Below are positions 33,131-44,510 of a DNA stretch of 64,000 nt, one piece after another. Below the pieces are notes generated by a model, which ran no database searches, had not been told where the DNA came from, and was given only the letters and a program-made list of their open reading frames with translations. Made by a program: the position numbers and the translations under genes. The first letter of the stretch is position 1. Every line of letters starts with the position of its first letter. This stretch comes from Desulfobacterales bacterium (lineage in GTDB: Bacteria; Desulfobacterota; Desulfobacteria; Desulfobacterales; JARGFK01), in NCBI GenBank assembly GCA_029211065.1, contig JARGFK010000009.1, positions 1 through 64,000 on the forward strand, given 5' to 3'.

Positions 33131-33203
33131 ATTGCGTAATATCGGCCAAGCAGCTGCACCATGGCTTTACCTTGCCGCCCAAGTATTCTATGCTGGAATT
33201 CAT

Positions 33204-34070
33204 ATGGAAATCTTGATTTACGGTACCATCAACAGTGCTGCCCTGGCGCTTTATGCCCTGGGTTTTGCCATGGTTTACGGGGTCAGCCGACTCCCCAACT
33301 TCGCCCACGGCGCCCTGTTCGTCCTGAGCGGCTTCATGACCTGGTTTTTTCTAAATTCTCTGGGGCTGAATTACCTTATCAGTATTATTCTTACCTTGAT
33401 CGCCACCGGTTTGATCGGCGCCCTTATTTATCAGTTTATCCTGATCCGCATTCGCGGGATGGAGATATCCGAAATTATGGCGACCTATGCCATGGGCCTT
33501 GCCATCCTCGAAGGCCTGAGATGGGGCGGCTTTAAAGGAATGACCTATACCCTGCCGGCTTTTATCAGCGGCAGTGTCACCATCCTGGGCGTCTCGGTGG
33601 ACTATCAGCGTCTGCTGGTGGTCGTCATCGGCGGGGCCGTGGTCGGACTGTTGTGGCTGTTTACCCACTATACCCGCATGGGGCTGTCCCTGCGGGGCAT
33701 GGCCCAGGATGAACGCGCCGCCCTGATGCTGGGGATCGATTCCGATCGCATGGCTCTGGTGGCCATGGCGTTCGGGTCCAGCCTGGCCGCGCTGGCGGCT
33801 ATCTGTCTCCTGCCGCTGGGAAATATCGTGGTGGAAGCCGGTTACAACGTCCTGATCCTGGCCATCGCCGTCTGTATCGTCGGCGGTCTCGGCAGCTGGA
33901 TGGGAGCGGTCCTGGCCGCTTTTCTGATCGGTTTCGCTCAGATTCTGACGGTGGTCTATTTAGGCGCCCATTACCAGATGGTGGTGGCGCTGCTGGCCAT
34001 CATCCTGACCCTGATTATCCGGCCATCCGGTCTTTTCGGTCGGCAGAAAGAACTGGAGGAAAGGGTATGA
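33204..34070 (+). CDS. livH: Branched-chain amino acid-type ABC transporter permease LivH
   Basis: The 288-residue inner-membrane permease has about eight helices and the family pattern INSAALALYALGFAMVYGV at the start and GSSLAALAAICLLP further on. The EAA-like segment lies around LRGMAQDERAALMLGI near 180. It forms a heterodimer with LivM. The start at the ATG 33204 (GGA eight bases upstream) matches LivH N-termini; the frame opens earlier at 33132 inside the repeat. Its stop overlaps livM (ATGA). Confidence 0.9.
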   Translation: MEILIYGTINSAALALYALGFAMVYGVSRLPNFAHGALFVLSGFMTWFFLNSLGLNYLISIILTLIATGLIGALIYQFILIRIRGMEISEIMATYAMGLAILEGLRWGGFKGMTYTLPAFISGSVTILGVSVDYQRLLVVVIGGAVVGLLWLFTHYTRMGLSLRGMAQDERAALMLGIDSDRMALVAMAFGSSLAALAAICLLPLGNIVVEAGYNVLILAIAVCIVGGLGSWMGAVLAAFLIGFAQILTVVYLGAHYQMVVALLAIILTLIIRPSGLFGRQKELEERV

Positions 34071-35086
34071 GCGTGAAAACCGGGCAACAACGCCAAGAAA
34101 GGATCGACCGCGGAATCAGAATCCGTTCGGATGGAATTTATGCCCTGATGTCCTGGCGCGAGCTGTCCTACCTCACCGTGCCCCGGCTGGCACTCATTGT
34201 CGGGATGCTGGTCCTGCCGCTGGTGCTGCCCGGCATGTACTGGCAGCGGGTCGTTTCCATTGCCTGTATCTACGCGCTGCTGGCCTTGAGCTTTGATTTC
34301 CTGGCGCACTACGTCGGCCTGGTCTGCCTGGGCGGGGCTTTTTTCGTGGGAACCGGCGGATATCTGGCCGCCATCCTGAATACATCCTTCGGCCTGCCGC
34401 CCCTGGTGACCATTCCCCTTGCCTCCATTTTAGGCGCAGCTCTATGCACCCTGCTGCTGCTCCCCTGTCTGCCGCTCAGAGGCGTTTATTTCGCCATTGT
34501 CAGCCTGATGTATCCGCTTTTTGCCATGCGCGTTATCGAGGCGCTCAATATCCTGGGCGGCACCGACGGCATCCTCGGCATCGACAGCTTTTCCAGCCGC
34601 TGGGTCGAACAGTATGCTGTAATCGGGGCAACCCTCCTTTTTCTCTTCGGAACAAGACGCCTGGTGAACATGGATATCGGCTTGGTCTTGCGCGGGGTAA
34701 AGGATAACGATCAGGCTATCCGGGCGTCGGGTATGAACATCACCCGCTACAAGACCATGGCTGTTTTTATCGCGTCGGCCATGGGGTGCATGGGCGGCGC
34801 CATCCTGGTGCATATTTACATGTGGTCCGGCATCTCCCAGTTTGCCCTTGATTTTTCGATTCTGCCCATTGCCGCCACCGTAATCGGCGGCAGCGGCACC
34901 CTGGCGGGGCCGGTTATCGGCTGTCTGATCCTGGTCCCCATATCCGAATTGCTGAGGGATTTCGGAACCCTGCGTATTGTGTTTTATGCGGTGATCCTGA
35001 TGGGGTTTATCGTTTTCCGCAGCGAGGGACTCCTGGTTTACGGCCAGCGCAAATATCATCAGTTTGAAAGGTGGACGCGGTTATGA
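34067..35086 (+). CDS. livM: Branched-chain amino acid-type ABC transporter permease LivM
   Basis: The 339-residue permease has an N-terminal cytoplasmic stretch and about nine membrane helices. LALSFDFLAHYVGLVCLGGAFF, YFAIVSLMYPLFAMRVIE and LVLRGVKDNDQAIRASGMNI (the coupling loop near 210) are typical of LivM. It pairs with LivH in the membrane. It overlaps both neighbours by four bases. Confidence 0.9.
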   Translation: MSVKTGQQRQERIDRGIRIRSDGIYALMSWRELSYLTVPRLALIVGMLVLPLVLPGMYWQRVVSIACIYALLALSFDFLAHYVGLVCLGGAFFVGTGGYLAAILNTSFGLPPLVTIPLASILGAALCTLLLLPCLPLRGVYFAIVSLMYPLFAMRVIEALNILGGTDGILGIDSFSSRWVEQYAVIGATLLFLFGTRRLVNMDIGLVLRGVKDNDQAIRASGMNITRYKTMAVFIASAMGCMGGAILVHIYMWSGISQFALDFSILPIAATVIGGSGTLAGPVIGCLILVPISELLRDFGTLRIVFYAVILMGFIVFRSEGLLVYGQRKYHQFERWTRL

Positions 35087-35877
35087 CCACGGAACCGATT
35101 CTGCAGGTCAGGGACGTAACCAAGGCTTTCGGCGGCATCCAGGCGCTCAACGGAGTAAGCTTCGACGTATACGAGGGGGATATCCTGGGCATCATCGGTC
35201 CCAACGGTTCCGGCAAAACCACGGTGGTCAACTGCATTACCGGCTTCATCAAGAAAAGCGCCGGAAAAGTTTTCTTCCGGGGCAAAGATATCAGCCGCAA
35301 ACCACCCCATAAAATCGCCGATATGGGGGTGACGCGCACATTCCAGATCATGCGCCCCTATTACAGCCTGCCGGCCTACAAGAACCTGGTGATCCCTCTG
35401 TTTTCACCGCGGGCCAAACGCACCGGCGGCTGGCGCGGCGGCGGCAGGCTGGGGGACCGCAATACCGTGGGAATTGACATCCTGGAAGAAATCGGATTTG
35501 AGCGCGATTCCTTTGTCCCCTACAAAATGGCGTCGAGTCTGCCCACCGGTTATCTTAAGCGCCTGGAGCTGGCCCGCTGTCTGGCGCTCAAGCCCGACAT
35601 CATTTTCTGCGACGAAATCTTTTCGGGTCTGAGCATGAGTGAGATCAGCAGCATGGTCCCCCTGATCGAGCGCCTGCAGATGGACGGGATCACCCTGGTG
35701 ATGATCGAACACCGCCTGCGGGAGCTATTCCGGGTGGCCAACCGGGTAATGGTCCTCAACTTCGGTGAAAAACTCATGGAAGGAACCGCCCAAGCGGTGA
35801 TGGCGGATGAAGCGGTCAAAAAGGCCTACTTCGGATCGGAAAATGTAGAGGAGCTCATGGGCAATGCTAACGGCTGA
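35083..35877 (+). CDS. livG: Liv-type ABC transporter ATP-binding protein LivG
   Basis: The 264-residue ATPase has Walker A GPNGSGKTT near residue 37, Q-loop ITGFIKK region, and Walker B DIIFCDE near 170 with the switch His in EHRLRE. The ABC signature is unusual: SLPTGYLKRLELARCLAL replaces the common LSYGQQRRLEIARAL, so the LSGGQ-like core is degenerate. The ATG at 35083 within the livM stop (ATGA) is preferred to a GTG 12 bases upstream. It works with LivF as an asymmetric ATPase pair. Confidence 0.9.
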   Translation: MTTEPILQVRDVTKAFGGIQALNGVSFDVYEGDILGIIGPNGSGKTTVVNCITGFIKKSAGKVFFRGKDISRKPPHKIADMGVTRTFQIMRPYYSLPAYKNLVIPLFSPRAKRTGGWRGGGRLGDRNTVGIDILEEIGFERDSFVPYKMASSLPTGYLKRLELARCLALKPDIIFCDEIFSGLSMSEISSMVPLIERLQMDGITLVMIEHRLRELFRVANRVMVLNFGEKLMEGTAQAVMADEAVKKAYFGSENVEELMGNANG

Positions 35878-36610
35878 AGGCCTGATGGTTTTTTACGAAA
35901 ACATGCTGGCGCTAAACAACGTCGGCATCACCTGCAGGGAAAACCAGATCGTGGGCGTATTCGGCGCCAACAGCGCCGGAAAGTCCACGCTGATGTACAC
36001 CCTTTCAGGGATCATGGAAGATATCCGCCGCAAAGCGGAAATGGCCGGCGGCGAGCGCATCACGGTCATGGGGCAGATCCGCTATCTGGGCGAGGATATC
36101 ATGGGCGTCAAACCGAGCCAGCGTGCCCGAAAGGGAATCGTCCTCTGCCCGGAGCGGCGCCGGATTTTTAACGAGAGCAGCGTCATGGAAAACTTAAGGA
36201 TCGGCGGCTACGTGGCATCGCCGGCCCAGGCCCGGGAAACGCTGGCATATGTTTTTAAAATATTCCCGGCGCTGGAAAAACTGAAAAAACGGATCGGCGG
36301 CTTTCTCAGCGGCGGTGAGCAGCAGATGCTGGCCATCGGCCGTGCCTTGATGGCGCAGCCCAAGCTGCTCCTGCTGGATGAGCCCCTGATGGGCCTCAGC
36401 CCCCTGGTTCAGGCCATGCTGGTGCGGGCCGTCAGGGAAATCCGCGACGAAACCGGGATATCCATCATCATTACCGAGCAATATGCCCGGCCGGTGCTCC
36501 CTATCATTGATTACGGTTTTATTCTGGAAAACGGAGCAGCGGTCATGGAGGGAACCCGGAAAGAACTGATGGGCAACCCTGACGTGCGTTCCGCCTATTT
36601 TGGAATCTGA
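35864..36610 (+). CDS. livF: Liv-type ABC transporter ATP-binding protein LivF
   Basis: The 248-residue ATPase has Walker A GANSAGKST near residue 38, the LivF-typical CPERRRIFNESSVMENLRIG near 95, a canonical signature FLSGGEQQMLAIGRAL near 148 and Walker B LLLLDEPLMGLSP. It overlaps livG by 14 bases. An insertion of about 15 residues (EDIRRKAEMAGGER) follows the Q-loop region. With a degenerate LivG partner, LivF probably supplies the standard signature in one of the two ATP sites. Confidence 0.92.
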   Translation: MLTAEGLMVFYENMLALNNVGITCRENQIVGVFGANSAGKSTLMYTLSGIMEDIRRKAEMAGGERITVMGQIRYLGEDIMGVKPSQRARKGIVLCPERRRIFNESSVMENLRIGGYVASPAQARETLAYVFKIFPALEKLKKRIGGFLSGGEQQMLAIGRALMAQPKLLLLDEPLMGLSPLVQAMLVRAVREIRDETGISIIITEQYARPVLPIIDYGFILENGAAVMEGTRKELMGNPDVRSAYFGI

Positions 36611-36611
36611 C

Positions 36612-36741
36612 GGGTTGCGGGTTACGCGTTACGGGTTACGAGTTAGCGAAGGCTATGGTTCAGAAATGGATTACAATGCCTCCCGGTTCACAAAGGACGG
36701 TGTCCGGTTCATTAAAATCCCTGAGCCCTGAACCCTGAAAG
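36612..36741. repeat. Heptamer-phased repeats between livF and ligase
   Basis: Five units GGGTTGC, GGGTTAC, GCGTTAC, GGGTTAC, GAGTTAG (36612-36646) are in exact 7-base phase. CTGAGCC, CTGAACC, CTGAAAG follow at 36721-36741. The two sets differ in sequence from each other and from the repeats at other loci. Confidence 0.75.
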
Positions 36742-36790
36742 CTTAGGCCGATTTAATACCGACTTGCTGGAAGGATATTATGATTGGGCC

Positions 36791-38449
36791 ATGAGTAACA
36801 GCGAACTGCAAAACGAACGGATATTTACCCGCTTTGACCGGATGAGCGAGCGCTACCCGGACCGGACGGCGCTACTCTATCTGGGCGAACGCTTTACCTT
36901 TGCCCGGCTTCGAGAGCTAAGCGACCGGTTTGCCGGCGCCCTGACCGGCATGGGCATCGGCAAGGGCGACCGGGTCATGCTTTACATTCCCAACTGCCCC
37001 CAGTGGGTCATCGCCTTTCTGGCGATTCAGAAAATCGGCGCGGTGATGGTGCCGGTTTCACCCATCTACACCTCCCATGAGATCACCTACATGATAGAAG
37101 ATGCCGGCGTTGAAACCGTCATTTGCCTCGACACCAATTACTGCTATGCCAACGAGGTCTGCTTTAACGTCGGGGTCAAACATGTCATCGTAACGAACCT
37201 GGTGGAGCTGCTCCCTTTATGGAAAAGATATCTCGGGGTTCTGCTGGATAAAATCCCCCACGGCAAGGTCGAAAAGCAGGACGGCGTTTACACGTTTAAA
37301 TCGCTTTTAAACCACCCGCCCATCCAGTCGGCGGTTGCACTGGATCCCCGCAAAGACCTGGCATACATTCTCTATACCGGCGGGACCACCGGTTTCCCCA
37401 AAGGGGTTCCCGGCAACCACATCGGGATGACCTCCTATGTCAATGACGTCACCGAAGATGTTGCCCGCGGCTACCTGAAAGAGGGCGAAGATGTCTATAT
37501 CGCCGTCAACCCCCTGTTTCACATCATGGCGCTGGGGCTGTTCATGTCGCTGGGACTGAACAAGGGCAACACCACCCTGCTGATGCCGGTTCCCCAGGTG
37601 GATGCCATTCTGGAAACGATCCAGCAGCACCGCGCCCGCTGGCTGCTGGGGGTTCCCGCCCTTTACCGCATGATTCTGGAAAACGACCGCATCGACCGGT
37701 ATGACTTGAGTTCGCTGGCCTACTGCTACTGCGGCGGGGATGTACTCCCCATGGAAGTGTTCAACCGCTGGCAGCAGCGTTTCAACATTCCGATCTATCA
37801 GGTGTACGGCTCCACCGAGATCGGTCATGTCACCTACAGCCGCATTGACCGTCCGCCCCGGCCCACCTCCATCGGGCTGCCGCTGAAAAGCCGAATATGC
37901 AAGGTGGTGGACCCGGCGACCCTGGAACCGGTTGCAGCCGGTGAGGTTGGGGAACTGCTGGTCACCTCACCCTATACCCTCAAAACCTACTGGAACAAGC
38001 CGGATGAAACCGAGCGCGCCTATGTGAACCTTGACGGCGAAACGTATTACCGCATGAGCGATTTCGTCCGCCAGGACGAGTCCGGAGAACTGGTCTATGT
38101 GGAGCGCTCCGCCGACATCATCAAACACAAAGGCTACCGGATTTCCGCTTCGGAGGTGGAAGCGGTTTTGCAGAACCATACGACCGTCATCGGCGCCTGC
38201 GTCGTTGGTGTCCCTGACCCCAAAGTCGGAGAGCGGATCAAGGCCATCGTGGTCTTGAAGGAAGATGCCCGGGGGGTGGGCGGCGCCGAGCTCATCAACT
38301 GGTGCCGCGAACGCCTGGCGCCCTATAAAGTCCCCAGCTACATCGAGTTTCGCGACATGCTGCCCAAGTCCAAAGTGGGCAAGCTGCTTCGGCGTGAAAT
38401 CCGCGACGAGGAACGCCGGCGCATCTCCAAGGAAAAAAGCACGGCGTGA
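36791..38449 (+). CDS. Acyl-CoA ligase (AMP-forming)
   Basis: The 552-residue enzyme activates a carboxylic acid with ATP and CoA. Motifs of the class I adenylate-forming family are all present: YTGGTTGFPKG near residue 195, YGSTEIGHVTYS near 337, and YRMSDFVRQDESGELVYVERS carrying the Asp and Arg of the hinge. The final GKLLRREIRDEE holds the catalytic lysine. The ATG at 36791 is used; a TTG at 36764 in frame is an alternative with no better ribosome site. Placed after livJHMGF, it probably activates the imported acid, either a fatty or an aromatic acid. Confidence 0.92.
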   Translation: MSNSELQNERIFTRFDRMSERYPDRTALLYLGERFTFARLRELSDRFAGALTGMGIGKGDRVMLYIPNCPQWVIAFLAIQKIGAVMVPVSPIYTSHEITYMIEDAGVETVICLDTNYCYANEVCFNVGVKHVIVTNLVELLPLWKRYLGVLLDKIPHGKVEKQDGVYTFKSLLNHPPIQSAVALDPRKDLAYILYTGGTTGFPKGVPGNHIGMTSYVNDVTEDVARGYLKEGEDVYIAVNPLFHIMALGLFMSLGLNKGNTTLLMPVPQVDAILETIQQHRARWLLGVPALYRMILENDRIDRYDLSSLAYCYCGGDVLPMEVFNRWQQRFNIPIYQVYGSTEIGHVTYSRIDRPPRPTSIGLPLKSRICKVVDPATLEPVAAGEVGELLVTSPYTLKTYWNKPDETERAYVNLDGETYYRMSDFVRQDESGELVYVERSADIIKHKGYRISASEVEAVLQNHTTVIGACVVGVPDPKVGERIKAIVVLKEDARGVGGAELINWCRERLAPYKVPSYIEFRDMLPKSKVGKLLRREIRDEERRRISKEKSTA

Positions 38450-38652: not shown

Positions 38653-38688
38653 TTGACAATATTATTTCATATATGTATTTATATGAAA
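38653..38688 (+). promoter_or_regulatory. Promoter with overlapping palindromic operator for the RpiR gene
   Basis: TTGACA (38653-38658) and TATTTA (38676-38681) are 17 bases apart. The palindrome TTTCATATA-N6-TATATGAAA (38665-38688) overlaps the spacer and -10 box, and a half-site TATTTCATA follows at 38693-38701. This is what an autorepressing RpiR-type regulator would need. Confidence 0.5.
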
Positions 38689-38768
38689 AATATATTTCAT
38701 ACAGGGCTGCCAAAAAATAGCGTGCTGTCCGAATGTTTCCAAACCATTCAATAGGGTGACCGACAAGC

Positions 38769-39626
38769 ATGAAAGAAATCGAAAAAATTTTTAGCCATCT
38801 GGAGGGCAGGTTCGAAAAACTGTCACAGAACCAGAAGCTTCTGGGAAAATATATTTTGGATAATTATCAGAAAGTCGCCTTTGCAACCATCGAGCAACTT
38901 TCGGCGGAATCAGGTGTCAGCGGTGCAACCATCGTCCGGTTTGCCAAAGCCATGGGCTACAAAGGATATCCCGCATTCCAAAAGGAAATCCGACGGATTG
39001 TTCGTGCGGATTTAAAAGGAAGCGAACGGTATAATATCGACTATGAATTTCGCGCCCGGGAAAACGATCCGCTTTCAAGAACCCAGCAAAAAGAGCTTGA
39101 AAATCTTTCTCACCTCCGGGAAACGCTTGATGTGTCAGAATTCAATAAGGCGGTTGAGACGATACATCGCTCGCAGAATATTCTGGTAATTGGATCTCGC
39201 AGCACCGCTTCCCTGGCCTACCATCTCTGGTTCGGCCTCACCAAGCTTGAGTTGAATGTATCCAAGATTACGACCGTCAACTCGGAAGCATACGACCGCA
39301 TGAACAAAAGGAATCGACCGGATCTGGTCATTCTCATCGGATTTCCGCGCTATTTGAGAGAACTCAAAGAGCTTCTGGACCTCGCCAAGGAAAAGGATGT
39401 CAACACCATCATCATCAGCGACAGCCCGTTCTCGCCGTTCCGCGGAGACATCAATCTTTACTCCCCGGCGGAATCAGCTTCATTCATGGCATTTCACTGC
39501 GCCCCCCTGATTCTGATAAACGCCCTTATCGACCACGTGGGTATGCTGGATCGGGATCGAACATTAAACGCGCTGGATCGCTTTGATAAATTGGCCGCAG
39601 AAAGGAAATATTTCATAAAGGCATGA
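38769..39626 (+). CDS. RpiR-family transcriptional regulator (HTH + SIS)
   Basis: The 285-residue protein has an N-terminal HTH_6 domain (FATIEQLSAESGVSGATIVRFAKAMGYKGYPAFQKEIR, about residues 38-75). It also has a C-terminal SIS sugar-phosphate binding domain (LVIGSRSTASLAYHLWFGL near 138, IIISDSPFSPF near 217). RpiR regulators sense phosphosugars or similar anions. It sits just upstream of, and in the same direction as, the TAXI-TRAP/AtuA cluster and probably controls it and itself. Confidence 0.92.
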   Translation: MKEIEKIFSHLEGRFEKLSQNQKLLGKYILDNYQKVAFATIEQLSAESGVSGATIVRFAKAMGYKGYPAFQKEIRRIVRADLKGSERYNIDYEFRARENDPLSRTQQKELENLSHLRETLDVSEFNKAVETIHRSQNILVIGSRSTASLAYHLWFGLTKLELNVSKITTVNSEAYDRMNKRNRPDLVILIGFPRYLRELKELLDLAKEKDVNTIIISDSPFSPFRGDINLYSPAESASFMAFHCAPLILINALIDHVGMLDRDRTLNALDRFDKLAAERKYFIKA

Positions 39627-39754
39627 CCGCCTATGACACGTCCTTAAATCAGTTCTTTTTCATATTGGGGGTGTTCCGGGCAAAAGACCCACAAGGCAGG
39701 ATGGATATTAACGACGTTCATGAATAAACAAGTATGAATGCAAAGGAGGTCAAA

Positions 39755-40798
39755 ATGAAAAAAACAATTATGTTGGTTTTTGTTCTAATGACGTTTGTTC
39801 TTCAGGGTCCGGCCGGGGCGGCTGAATCCCCCTCCGCCCAGAAAGTCAACCTGTCCCTGGGCAGTGTCGGTTCCTCCTCGGGGGTTTATGCGTTTGCAAT
39901 TTCTTTGGCCGCGGTCGTTCATAAATACGATCCAAACATAATGGTGACGGCCGTGGAAGGCGGCGGCGGATATGACCATGCCAAATCCATGAAAAAAGGT
40001 ATCTTGGACTGGTCCATGAGCGGCAGCCCCGCCGTTTACGCAACAGTGCGTGCAGGTGTGGCCAATTTTCAGAAAGAGGGTCCGTGGGAACCGATCCGTC
40101 TGATGTTCATGCGAAACCTGAATGTAACCCGCATCTATGTGCGCGCCGATGTTGCCGCCAAGGAAGGAATCCGCACCTGGAAGGATTTAAGCGGAAAGAA
40201 TTTCTGCCCGGGAATCCCCGGCACCCGGGACGCTTCCCGCATCATGGATGCCAACAAGATGCTCGGAACCGGCATCAAGTTGATCCCCAGTTCTTTGGCG
40301 GATGCCACCCGGGGGACTCGCGAAGGCAAACTGGTGGGCATGGTGAAGGGAAGCCCGCACGACAGCTTTGATGCAGCCATGATGGAAAGTCACTACAGTA
40401 CCCCACTCACCGTCATCGGCTTTGCCAAAGATGAGGCTGACAAACTCCAGGCTGAAGATCCGATGAATACCTTCATGGAAACTTCGGCAGGCGCCATCCG
40501 GGAACTCCCGAATCTGCCAAGTTTATGGGAGATGAGCTCGGCCACCATGACCATCAGCAGTTCGCAAATGTCCCAGGAGACAGGTTATCGCATCGTAAAA
40601 GCCGTTTATAAGGGATGGGACGAAATCGCAGCGGCATTTCCTCCCTGCAAAGGAATCGATCCCATTGCAGATGCCTTCAAGCATACACCCGCCGGCAAGG
40701 AATTCTTTTTTCACGCCGGTGTGATCCAGTATGCCAAAGAAAAGGGAATTCAGGTTCCGGACCGTTTTATCCCGCCGGAATATAAAGACGTAAAATAA
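39755..40798 (+). CDS. TAXI-family TRAP transporter solute-binding protein
   Basis: The 347-residue periplasmic protein has a signal peptide (MLVFVLMTFVLQGPAGAAE) and TAXI hallmarks: VNLSLGSVGSSSGVYAFAIS, VTAVEGGGGYDHAKSM and ICVRAD-like IYVRADVAAKEGI. RTWKDLSGKNFCPGIPGTRD and GKLVGMVKGS-type ligand loops follow. Known members bind glutamate or other carboxylates; the ligand here is unknown. The ATG at 39755 follows the strong site AAAGGAGG. It supplies solute to the fused permease encoded next. Confidence 0.9.
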   Translation: MKKTIMLVFVLMTFVLQGPAGAAESPSAQKVNLSLGSVGSSSGVYAFAISLAAVVHKYDPNIMVTAVEGGGGYDHAKSMKKGILDWSMSGSPAVYATVRAGVANFQKEGPWEPIRLMFMRNLNVTRIYVRADVAAKEGIRTWKDLSGKNFCPGIPGTRDASRIMDANKMLGTGIKLIPSSLADATRGTREGKLVGMVKGSPHDSFDAAMMESHYSTPLTVIGFAKDEADKLQAEDPMNTFMETSAGAIRELPNLPSLWEMSSATMTISSSQMSQETGYRIVKAVYKGWDEIAAAFPPCKGIDPIADAFKHTPAGKEFFFHAGVIQYAKEKGIQVPDRFIPPEYKDVK

Positions 40799-40850
40799 CA
40801 GGGACGGGATTTTAAATCATCATAAAGTTGTTCTTCACAGGAGGTTTCCC

Positions 40851-42722
40851 ATGCCCTGGATTACCCGCGAAAGGGCGGTATACTGGACTGCTTTAGGATT
40901 CGCGATATTTCAGTTGTTCATCACCGTCAGCATATCCCTTTATGATATGCAGCTCAGGGCGCTCCATGTCCTCATGAGCCTTTCCGTTGTTTTTCTGGCG
41001 CTTCCCCTGAGTAAAAAGGCAGACAGCACCAACCGCATATCGCTCGGGTCGCTGTTGATTGTCGCTATTGTATTAACGGCCAACATCCGGATTTTTATCG
41101 ACTGGGAAAAAATAATCATGTATCCCGGCGATGCCGGCCGGATCGATCTGGTCCTCGGGGCTTTCCTGACCGTTTTTATTCTGGAAGCTTCCCGCCGGGC
41201 TACGGGCTGGGCGATACCGGTGCTGGTCTGCCTCATGTTCGTATATGTGTTTTTAGGGCCGCTGATGCCGGGGATCTGGATCCATCCGGGTTTTACGCTG
41301 GAGCACGTCCTTTCGTCCCTCTACTATTCATCGGACGGCATCTACGGCTCCTTGACCGGTACTTCGGCGACCTTTATCTCCATGTTTATTATTTTCGGGA
41401 CGCTGCTGGACGCCTCCGGCGGCGGGAAAACGTTTATCGATGTAGCCCTCCTGTTCGCGGGGCGCTTCAAAGGCGGACCGGCCAAAGTGGCTGTGGTTTC
41501 AAGCGCGCTATTCGGGATGATTTCAGGAAGCGCGGTCGCCAACGTTTCGGTGACCGGCAATTACACCATTCCCCTGATGAAGGGGCTCGGATATGATCCG
41601 AATTTCGCCGGCGGGGTGGAATCCATATCATCAACCGGGGGGGGCATTACTCCCCCGGTGATGGGCATTACGGCCTTTATCATGGCTGACCTGCTGGGAA
41701 TACCCTATTTAAAGATCATCGGCTATGCTGCCATTCCCTGCCTGCTGTTTTACATCGGGATCATCGCCGGTGTACATTTTGAAGCGACGCGCATCCGGCT
41801 GATTCCGGTCCCAGCGGATCAGATTCCGCACTGGAAAGAAGTCCTGACCTGGAATAAAATCATGCCGCTGATTGCCCCGGTATGTGTTCTGCTGGTTCTG
41901 CTGTTCAGGGGATACACGCTGATATCGGCCGGTTTCTACGCCTGCAGTACCGTGATCGTTCTTTACATAAGCTCGGATTTGACCTTGTCCGGCTTGAAGC
42001 AAAATGTTTTGAAAATATTAAAAGCCCTCTGCAACGGCGGTCTTTCCATCGCCAAAATCGCTCCCATTCTGGTGAGCGTCGGCATCTTTACCGATCTGCT
42101 TGGCCTTACCGGCGTCGCTCCCAAAATCAGCAGCTTGATACTTGAAATGGGCGGAACCAACTTGATCGGTTCTCTGCTGGTGGCAGCCCTGATCCCGCTG
42201 ATCCTGGGCGCACCCCTGCCGGTGACGGCGACTTATATCCTTTCGGCCGCCCTGATCGCACCCGCAATTGTAAAGCTCAAGATCGACGTGGTGGCCGCTC
42301 ACATGTTCCTGCTTTACTGGGCCACCCTGGCATCTGTAACCCCGCCCACCTGCACGGCCTGTGTGATCGGCGCCAATATCGGCGGCGGGAACTGGTTTAA
42401 GGTCGCGCTGGTGGGCATGCGCCTGGGGGCGGTCGCTTTTCTGATCCCGTTCTTTTTCGTTCTTAATCCCGCTCTGCTGGGACGGGGAGAGCCCATTGAT
42501 GTTATAATTTGCGCGGCAACCGGGATCATCGGGGCGATTTTTCTTGCTGCCGGTTTTTTCGGATCAAGGGACAACATCATAAAATCTGTTGTGAAAGTTG
42601 CGGCCGGCGCCCTGATGCTGGCGCCGAACTACACGCTCTCATTTCTGGGAATCGGGATGGGGGGAATTACACTGGTGTATGAAAAGATCTTTTCGGAAAA
42701 ACAACGTGCCGCTAAAGTTTAG
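40851..42722 (+). CDS. TRAP transporter permease, fused 4TM/12TM
   Basis: The 623-residue membrane protein combines the small (DctQ-like) and large (DctM-like) TRAP subunits, the form that always pairs with TAXI binding proteins. About 17-18 hydrophobic segments are visible. The large-subunit signature segments are FGMISGSAVANVSVTGNYTIP near 215 and GGITPPVMGITAFIMAD near 255. LYWATLASVTPPTC near 490 is also conserved. It imports a solute driven by a sodium or proton gradient. CAGGAGG precedes the ATG. Confidence 0.93.
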   Translation: MPWITRERAVYWTALGFAIFQLFITVSISLYDMQLRALHVLMSLSVVFLALPLSKKADSTNRISLGSLLIVAIVLTANIRIFIDWEKIIMYPGDAGRIDLVLGAFLTVFILEASRRATGWAIPVLVCLMFVYVFLGPLMPGIWIHPGFTLEHVLSSLYYSSDGIYGSLTGTSATFISMFIIFGTLLDASGGGKTFIDVALLFAGRFKGGPAKVAVVSSALFGMISGSAVANVSVTGNYTIPLMKGLGYDPNFAGGVESISSTGGGITPPVMGITAFIMADLLGIPYLKIIGYAAIPCLLFYIGIIAGVHFEATRIRLIPVPADQIPHWKEVLTWNKIMPLIAPVCVLLVLLFRGYTLISAGFYACSTVIVLYISSDLTLSGLKQNVLKILKALCNGGLSIAKIAPILVSVGIFTDLLGLTGVAPKISSLILEMGGTNLIGSLLVAALIPLILGAPLPVTATYILSAALIAPAIVKLKIDVVAAHMFLLYWATLASVTPPTCTACVIGANIGGGNWFKVALVGMRLGAVAFLIPFFFVLNPALLGRGEPIDVIICAATGIIGAIFLAAGFFGSRDNIIKSVVKVAAGALMLAPNYTLSFLGIGMGGITLVYEKIFSEKQRAAKV

Positions 42723-42792
42723 ATGTCCGGTATTGCCCCGCTTGGGTTGCCGGGAATTGAAATATTCATAAAGTAGGCTGGGAGGTCATATT

Positions 42793-44181
42793 TTGGAAAA
42801 ACATACCGTAATTTCACCGACTTCTTGTATGGGGCTGGTGGGGATCGATGAGGGCGCTTATAAGATCGCTTTAACCAGAGATCCCGATTCCATCGCCGTT
42901 GACGCAGGTTCCCTAGATCCGGGTCCCCATTATTTAGGCGCCGGGCTGCCCCACGTCGCAGAATACAAAATGAAAAACGATTGCAGAATAATGATGGAGG
43001 GGCTCTTAACCAAAAAAACGCCCATGGTGATGGGATCTGCAGGGGGTTCCGGTGGACGCCCGCACATTGAATGGCACCTGAAAAGAATGAACGAGGTGGC
43101 CAAAGAAATGGGGAAAACCTTTAAGGTGGCGGTTATTGATACGACTTTAGACAAAGAATATCTTAAAAAAAGAATCAAAAGTGAAACCATAGCGGGCTTG
43201 GACCATGGCCAGCCCCTTACGGAAGATATCGTTGACCGCTGTACGGAAATCGTCGCCCAGATCGGTGTAGAACCCATTATTAAGGCGTTAAACATGAACC
43301 CGGATATTGTTCTGGCCGGCAGGGCCTGCGACAACGCCTGTTTTGCCGCCGAGCCCGTCCGAAGGGGTTATGACAAGGGATTGGCCCTTCACCTGGGGAA
43401 AATCATTGAATGCGGATCTGCCAGCGCCATACCTTTGCCGGATTCCAAAATCATGCGGACCCCCATGCTGGCCACCCTCATCGATGATTATTTTTTGGTG
43501 GAGCCTGCCACGGACGACTGGATCAGTACGGTAAGATCCACAGCAGGCCACGAAGCGTATGAGCGCACAAATCCTTTTTACCAGCTTGAACCAGGCGGAA
43601 TCCTGGACATGCGAAAAGCCAAACTGTCTCAGCCCAATGAACGGAGTGTAAAGGTTTCCGGCAGTGTCTGGATCGATGATCCTGAATCTTACAAGGTCAA
43701 ATTGGAGGGCGCGGAAAAGCTGGGGTATCGTTCTCTATTTATTGTAGGGGCCAGAGACCCCGCTTTTATCCAGAACATTGACTGGATTATTAATTTTACC
43801 AAAACACGGGTAATCAATGAATTTGAACCCAAAGGCCTTTGCGAAGGCAAGGATTACCACATTATATTTCGCATATATGGCAAGGACGGGGTTATGGGGC
43901 CGCTGGAGCCCCAAAAAAAAATTACCTCACATGAACTGGGAATCATCATGGAGATTATTGCCCCTACCCGGGAACTGGCCCACGAAATTTGCTATTTTGG
44001 AAAATACGGCATGGTTTGGTGTAATTACCCCGGACGCATCACCATATCCGGAAATGTAGGATATGCTTTTTCTCCCAGTATAATAGATGCCGGAGAGGTC
44101 TATAAGCTTTCGGTCCATCACCTGCTGCCCATCGACCGGGACCAGGCGCTTTTTGATATTAGAATTGTGGAGGTGGGATAA
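42793..44181 (+). CDS. AtuA-like / DUF1446 family protein
   Basis: The 462-residue protein is related to the acyclic terpene utilization protein AtuA (DUF1446, PF07287): GLVGIDEGAYKIALTRDPD, DAGSLDPGPHYLGAG, GSAGGSGGRPHIEWHL and DIVLAGRACDNACFAAEPV. AtuA is needed for citronellol/geraniol catabolism in Pseudomonas but its reaction is not settled. The start is TTG at 42793, nine bases after GGGAGG. The DUF4387 gene follows after two bases; the two families are commonly adjacent or fused. Behind a TAXI-TRAP importer it probably processes the imported acid or its CoA ester. Confidence 0.85.
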   Translation: MEKHTVISPTSCMGLVGIDEGAYKIALTRDPDSIAVDAGSLDPGPHYLGAGLPHVAEYKMKNDCRIMMEGLLTKKTPMVMGSAGGSGGRPHIEWHLKRMNEVAKEMGKTFKVAVIDTTLDKEYLKKRIKSETIAGLDHGQPLTEDIVDRCTEIVAQIGVEPIIKALNMNPDIVLAGRACDNACFAAEPVRRGYDKGLALHLGKIIECGSASAIPLPDSKIMRTPMLATLIDDYFLVEPATDDWISTVRSTAGHEAYERTNPFYQLEPGGILDMRKAKLSQPNERSVKVSGSVWIDDPESYKVKLEGAEKLGYRSLFIVGARDPAFIQNIDWIINFTKTRVINEFEPKGLCEGKDYHIIFRIYGKDGVMGPLEPQKKITSHELGIIMEIIAPTRELAHEICYFGKYGMVWCNYPGRITISGNVGYAFSPSIIDAGEVYKLSVHHLLPIDRDQALFDIRIVEVG

Positions 44182-44183
44182 AA

Positions 44184-44510
44184 ATGAATCTTAGAGAAAT
44201 CGCATCTGTGATCAGAACAAAGAATGCTGGTCCTTTCTGGTTTACCGCCGATATCATGTTTGACAATACGCAGCTATACGAGGCTGTAAAAAAATCCCAG
44301 GCCATCACTCGGGAGCGGGTGGCCCAGCTTTATAACGTCGACCCGGGAAACATTTCTGAGGTCATCTATCATGACGAAGGCAGGATTATTAAGGTGAATA
44401 TTAAAAGGCCCCATGTATCCGGCGACCCGGGAGATGCGGATGTTCTTGGCATGCAGCAGCACGCCCCTCTTTTGGATATAGACATAAGCTTTCATAAACT
44501 ATTCAGGTAG
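44184..44510 (+). CDS. DUF4387 family protein
   Basis: The 108-residue protein begins MNLREIASVIRTKNAGPFWF and contains TADIMFDN and IKRPHVSGDPGDADVLGMQQHAPL, matching DUF4387 (PF14330). This small family accompanies DUF1446/AtuA-like proteins and is probably a subunit of the same enzyme. No catalytic residues are established. It is the last gene of the RpiR/TAXI-TRAP cluster. Confidence 0.87.
   Translation: MNLREIASVIRTKNAGPFWFTADIMFDNTQLYEAVKKSQAITRERVAQLYNVDPGNISEVIYHDEGRIIKVNIKRPHVSGDPGDADVLGMQQHAPLLDIDISFHKLFR

Follow-up and report, generated by a model that had tools for sequence, protein, structure and literature searches.

The window analysed here, a 64,000-nucleotide stretch of a contig from a Desulfobacterales bacterium, carries five co-directional genes on the plus strand (38769-44510) encoding, in this order, an RpiR regulator, a TAXI protein, a fused TRAP permease, an AtuA-like protein and a DUF4387 protein, with intergenic spacings of 2 to about 130 bp (Table 1). 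Family assignments rest on Pfam and NCBIfam matches above curated cut-offs wherever such cut-offs exist, and they bear out the five-gene cluster and its coordinates as given in an earlier sequence-only reading of this DNA. That reading had also described one catabolic module composed of an importer and an enzyme, a view that is retained here. Both features of RpiR/MurR membership (HTH_6 and SIS) are present in the regulator according to Pfam; no NCBIfam equivalog was found for it above its cut-off, and the AtuA-like and DUF4387 proteins have no NCBIfam match. The TAXI gene has a second in-frame ATG at 39734, and the start codon of the AtuA-like gene is TTG. Upstream lie a branched-chain-type ABC transporter and an acyl-CoA ligase, downstream a HEAT-repeat gene on the opposite strand, and these neighbours look like units apart from the module. 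The upstream block (33132-38449), in which branched-chain-type ABC permeases and ATPases are followed by the ligase, is probably a separate carboxylate uptake unit.

Table 1. Features of the RpiR-TAXI-TRAP-AtuA-DUF4387 module, with positions in the window.
Feature	Position	Strand	Basis or remark
Palindrome TTTCATATA-N6-TATATGAAA	38665..38688		perfect 9+9 match; putative RpiR operator
Third half-site TTTCATA	38695..38701		30 bp from first half-site; role putative
RpiR/MurR-type regulator with SIS domain	38769..39626	+	HTH_6 53.8 bits, SIS 40.9 bits (Pfam)
TAXI-type TRAP solute-binding protein	39755..40798	+	NMT1_3; TIGR02122 87.7 bits, cut-off 84.35
Fused TRAP transporter permease	40851..42722	+	DctM; TIGR02123 518.9, cut-off 320.65
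AtuA-like large subunit, citramalate lyase subunit A homologue	42793..44181	+	PF07287 64.4, cut-off 22.8
DUF4387 small subunit, citramalate lyase subunit B homologue	44184..44510	+	PF14330 117.8, cut-off 27

The palindrome previously noted in front of the cluster is indeed perfect. With up to three mismatches allowed it occurs once in the window, against 0.01 occurrences expected by chance, and its exact half-site pattern has no second copy in the whole 4.9-Mb genome. It is the probable operator of the RpiR protein, which would bind there.

A search of PDB sequences returned one match per subunit, chains A and B of 9erq, whose molecule names are 'Citramalate lyase, subunit A (cmlA)' and 'subunit B (cmlB)'; the CmlAB names and the activity label used here come from the PDB records. 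The AtuA-like protein matches chain A over residues 5-460 (phmmer E 6.3e-99), and the DUF4387 protein matches chain B (phmmer E 1.2e-23). The AlphaFold2 model of the large subunit (pLDDT 90) superimposes on chain A of 9evf with a Z of 47.1 and an rmsd of 2.1 over 447 residues; this Foldseek match, released on 2025-10-08, bears the title 'Citramalate lyase - ADP - pyruvate complex', and nothing except citramalate lyase was found below E 0.001 when Foldseek was run with the large-subunit model. Weaker structural matches over residues 310-437, by appearance a common ferredoxin-like arrangement, were set aside. DUF4387 can no longer be described, as it was earlier, as lacking an assigned activity, since an AtuA-DUF4387 complex has been deposited as citramalate lyase (9erq, 9evf), and for the citramalate-lyase branch the pair already has a known activity. 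The terpene label of AtuA is likewise misleading at this locus, where the protein most resembles citramalate lyase and is paired with DUF4387 instead of AtuA_ferredoxin. The PF07287 match is limited to residues 95-340 of the large subunit, and in the small subunit DUF4387 is the sole match at E 0.001, with no PF23544. Literature searches found no publication on 9ERQ, 9EVF or the CmlAB pair, including work on the methylaspartate pathway and mesaconase from 2023 onwards, no paper on DUF4387, none combining any two of TAXI TRAP, RpiR, AtuA and DUF1446, and none linking citramalate with CmlA; the accessible text of PMC12290011 and PMC8473912 does not name the pair.

Gene context had pointed in the same direction ahead of the structures. 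In annotated plasmid loci of Escherichia, Salmonella and Prevotella, AtuA-DUF4387 lies within methylaspartate clusters in which no citramalate lyase gene is annotated; from this context alone it was predicted that AtuA-DUF4387 is the citramalate lyase that had been missing in glutamate fermentation, and the PDB then agreed. In the available portion of PMC4682846 it has been reported that no citramalate lyase activity was found in E. coli O157:H7 on citrate, acetate or propionate, and the fate of citramalate is called unclear; DUF1446 belongs to that same cluster. The context was surveyed across 398 genomes from the phylum to which Petroclostridium sp. X23 (L043, G393) belongs, 74 of which contain methylaspartate ammonia-lyase at E 1e-35 or better, in 78 places. 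AtuA adjoins 51 of these places and CitF five, both adjoin none, and 22 have neither; among the latter, 13 belong to genomes with DUF4387 elsewhere, four to genomes with CitF only and five to genomes with neither, while seven of the 22 lack a nearby GlmE and may lie outside the glutamate pathway. The survey thus agrees with the lyase role of the AtuA-DUF4387 family independently of the structures.

At the level of whole genomes, DUF4387 is present in 61 of the 74 genomes with methylaspartate ammonia-lyase as compared with 6 of 74 without it in the same search, and CitF, full or fragmentary, occurs in 14 of the 74, a count that includes a fragment in G606 and leaves out weak matches in G448 and G792. 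Six genomes have both, 55 DUF4387 only, eight CitF only and five neither (Fisher P 1.7e-4). When relatedness is taken into account, using a kinship tree that leaves out L187, L201 and L202, this exclusion is not significant (median P 0.25) because too few independent pairs are available: six lie on supported branches, and among these CitF changes in the opposite direction in 3.2 on average and in the same direction never. DUF4387 stands beside AtuA in 79 of the 80 AtuA loci of named genomes (the 80 best matches), the exception being L060, where the contig ends 217 bases past AtuA; the pairing is nearly obligate. Altogether, the survey supports the view that AtuA-DUF4387, and not CitDEF, cleaves citramalate in many anaerobes and enterobacteria, a step left open in 2015 by PMC4682846 in its accessible part.

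A further protein accompanies the pair in some of these clusters. It is a P-loop protein of about 310 residues with no Pfam or NCBIfam match (L064, 11705-12631, and relatives), which adjoins the pair and occurs in 35/51 methylaspartate clusters of the AtuA type, 0/5 of the CitF type and 8/22 of those with neither. Its model shows similarity over partial length to TsaE-type ATPases and to alanyl-tRNA editing domains (E 1e-4 to 8e-4).

The position of the window pair relative to this branch was determined from conservation and phylogeny. In the scan of genome contigs with a six-row AtuA alignment the 80 best matches were retained, which biases the sample from that scan towards the citramalate-lyase type. 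The window AtuA retains 48 of 49 columns that are nearly invariant across 176 rows, and 41 of 82 further (signature) columns conserved in the 103 methylaspartate-linked rows, all of which retain at least 0.93 of them; as these columns were picked on the linked rows, the test is valid only for non-linked rows, and the gap in signature counts between 0.76 and 0.90 may partly stem from the best-80 sampling. The window DUF4387 protein shows the same pattern, with 15/15 invariant and 7/15 signature columns retained. Altered positions of the large subunit cluster in motifs 11-19, 181, 215-223 and 404-411, and several of those around 11-19 and 215-223 are identical in 102 or 103 of the 103 linked rows. 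The tree was built from 105 rows, comprising every one of the 72 rows outside the methylaspartate-linked group and 33 of the 92 distinct rows within it; all 33 linked rows fall in one 66-row set (SH-aLRT 98), outside which the window AtuA forms its own branch with L031 (87% identical) and L032, within a 24-row set (support 91) that also holds TTT- and TAXI-TRAP-linked rows. The window's genome has no methylaspartate ammonia-lyase match at E 0.001 or better, and among 395 genomes of the phylum the window AtuA has no relative above 40% identity besides itself. The window pair is not in the methylaspartate-linked citramalate-lyase clade. Because the invariant columns are retained and half of the signature columns altered, it may be read as having kept the catalytic core and changed, presumably, the substrate pocket.

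Importers are found beside other members of the family as well. Of the 176 AtuA rows, 73 have no methylaspartate genes in their vicinity; six of these 73 (the window, L116-L119 and L211) have a TRAP permease at a distance of at most 9 kb and 12 have TTT transporter genes close by, so that the co-localisation of transporter and AtuA-DUF4387 pair expected by the sequence-only reading does recur in other genomes; its proposal that the substrate is a carboxylate is judged likely. RpiR, searched with one reference sequence as query, is near no other row among the 176. The TTT-linked L041, L046 and L048 and the TAXI-TRAP-linked L211 carry the full citramalate-lyase signature (at least 0.98 of the columns) with an importer adjoining and no methylaspartate genes, and importer plus lyase is therefore a recurring arrangement. 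The ligand cannot be read off for the window TAXI protein, since its matches to solved TAXI proteins are weak (best E 2.2e-13) and these relatives only distant.

Several of these loci differ in their surroundings. L211 (4678-14917) lies in a genome without methylaspartate ammonia-lyase and has TAXI, TRAP permease and MmgE/PrpD genes near an AtuA with the citramalate-lyase signature. The AtuA proteins of the TRAP-linked L116-L119 form yet another clade in the tree; one of them, L118 (2904-10555), is the second AtuA-DUF4387 pair of the window's own genome, located on contig C2 in an operon ordered GntR/UTRA, D-glutamate-cyclase-like protein (GLUCM-like_C), TAXI, TRAP permease, AtuA and DUF4387, and in L113 a gene belonging, as in L118, to cluster c130 is accompanied by an ABC importer. 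The closest relative of the window pair, L031 (536-4560), is directly preceded by a PrpR_N sigma-54 activator, and its 4.8-kb contig contains no TRAP and no RpiR, so the pair is not tied to one regulator and transporter. This contig is labelled Cyclobacteriaceae, and a binning error is possible.

Taken together, the window pair is a citramalate-lyase variant, of an enzyme kind that has been solved already, in which the branch and the substrate are new. We consider it fairly probable that the module imports its substrate for a lyase that releases acetate from a citramalate-like hydroxy acid, the lyase chemistry being predicted by extension from the solved relative. A 2-hydroxy-2-substituted succinate resembling citramalate is the probable substrate, as opposed to citramalate formed from glutamate. 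In such a scheme, the periplasmic TAXI protein would capture one small external hydroxy-carboxylate, which the fused TRAP permease would bring into the cell; the AtuA-like/DUF4387 enzyme, as a paralogue of citramalate lyase, would then cut in one step the C-C bond next to the carbinol carbon, yielding acetate and a 2-oxo acid, while substrate or product would relieve RpiR repression at the palindrome. The direction of import and the regulation of the operon are likewise presumed.

A closer analogy, in which a true citramalate lyase forms pyruvate and acetate from citramalate itself, imported from outside, would be in keeping with the closest solved relative of the pair, with the genuine-signature pairs found beside TTT and TRAP importers, and with the position of citramalate one step from central metabolites, which accounts for a single-enzyme module; the clade outside the 66-row set, the retention of only half of the signature columns and the alteration of near-invariant positions around 11-19 and 215-223 nevertheless make it unlikely. 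As only 41 of the 82 signature columns are retained, the chemistry of the window pair could also have shifted, and the ADP in 9evf suggests a nucleotide-dependent reaction, which a plain retro-aldol description would omit. This bound ADP, together with the strong departure of the window pair from residues that citramalate lyases conserve, might point to a related reaction without acetate release, in which a carboxylate is, for instance, ligated, hydrated or phosphorylated in a nucleotide-dependent manner, but the invariant core is retained in both window subunits and the accessible part of PMC4847356 tentatively makes terpene AtuA an acetate-releasing lyase too, so that such a reaction is quite improbable. 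Least credible is a terpene-type acetate lyase acting on a branched 3-hydroxyglutaryl-CoA ester supplied by the upstream AMP-binding acyl-CoA ligase (36764-38449), since, despite the membership of the large subunit in PF07287 and a Sulfitobacter plasmid with TAXI, TRAP, AtuA, AtuA_ferredoxin, carboxylase and acyl-CoA dehydrogenase in a row, about 320 bp including the operator separate the ligase from the module, which has no carboxylase or hydratase and in which the partner is DUF4387.

The preferred reading, a lyase for a citramalate-like acid, ties two families of 'unknown function' to a solved enzyme and explains the occurrence of the pair both in glutamate fermentation and beside carboxylate importers; it also singles out importer-linked clades whose binding proteins are handles for new substrates. 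A broader view is conceivable, if somewhat less than probable, in which AtuA proteins with a small ferredoxin-like partner (DUF4387 or AtuA_ferredoxin) belong to a single superfamily of lyases that consist of two subunits and release acetate from tertiary hydroxy acids; the window pair would be a new subfamily with a non-citramalate substrate and a dedicated TAXI-TRAP importer. This view is based on the shared pairing, on the tentative listing of terpene AtuA as acetate lyase (PMC4847356, available text) and on the end-to-end alignment of the DUF4387 and AtuA_ferredoxin profiles over 100 columns (single-comparison P 1.6e-4, with a profile probability of only 24%; reversed-profile controls P 0.37 and 0.39). 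If true, the window TAXI protein would lead to a nutrient and a lyase specificity not described before. Divergent AtuA proteins on Sulfitobacter, Paraburkholderia and Haladaptatus plasmids are followed by a small protein that is AtuA_ferredoxin according to Pfam. On the Sulfitobacter plasmid (L235, 790-8962), TAXI, TRAP permease, AtuA, AtuA_ferredoxin, carboxyl transferase and biotin carboxylase genes are consecutive, possibly an importer-fed version of terpene-type degradation.

Among known systems, the AtuA and AtuA_ferredoxin pair (PF07287 and PF23544) shares with the window one Pfam family for the large subunit and an adjoining gene for a small partner of 105-131 residues, but PF07287 spans just the middle of the window protein. 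TAXI-type TRAP transporters are matched by a binding protein and a fused permease that exceed the NCBIfam cut-offs (TIGR02122, TIGR02123), although the solved relatives of the former are distant. CitDEF of Clostridia shares with the solved pair the reaction implied by the latter's name, in which citramalate yields pyruvate and acetate (PMC4682846, accessible part), but consists of other subunits and replaces AtuA-DUF4387 in methylaspartate clusters, the two never being found together in the 78 places. CmlAB is homologous to both window subunits over nearly their full length, with the gene order of the annotated clusters and the invariant residues retained, whereas the window pair belongs to a separate clade with half of the signature columns altered and has an importer and RpiR in place of methylaspartate genes.
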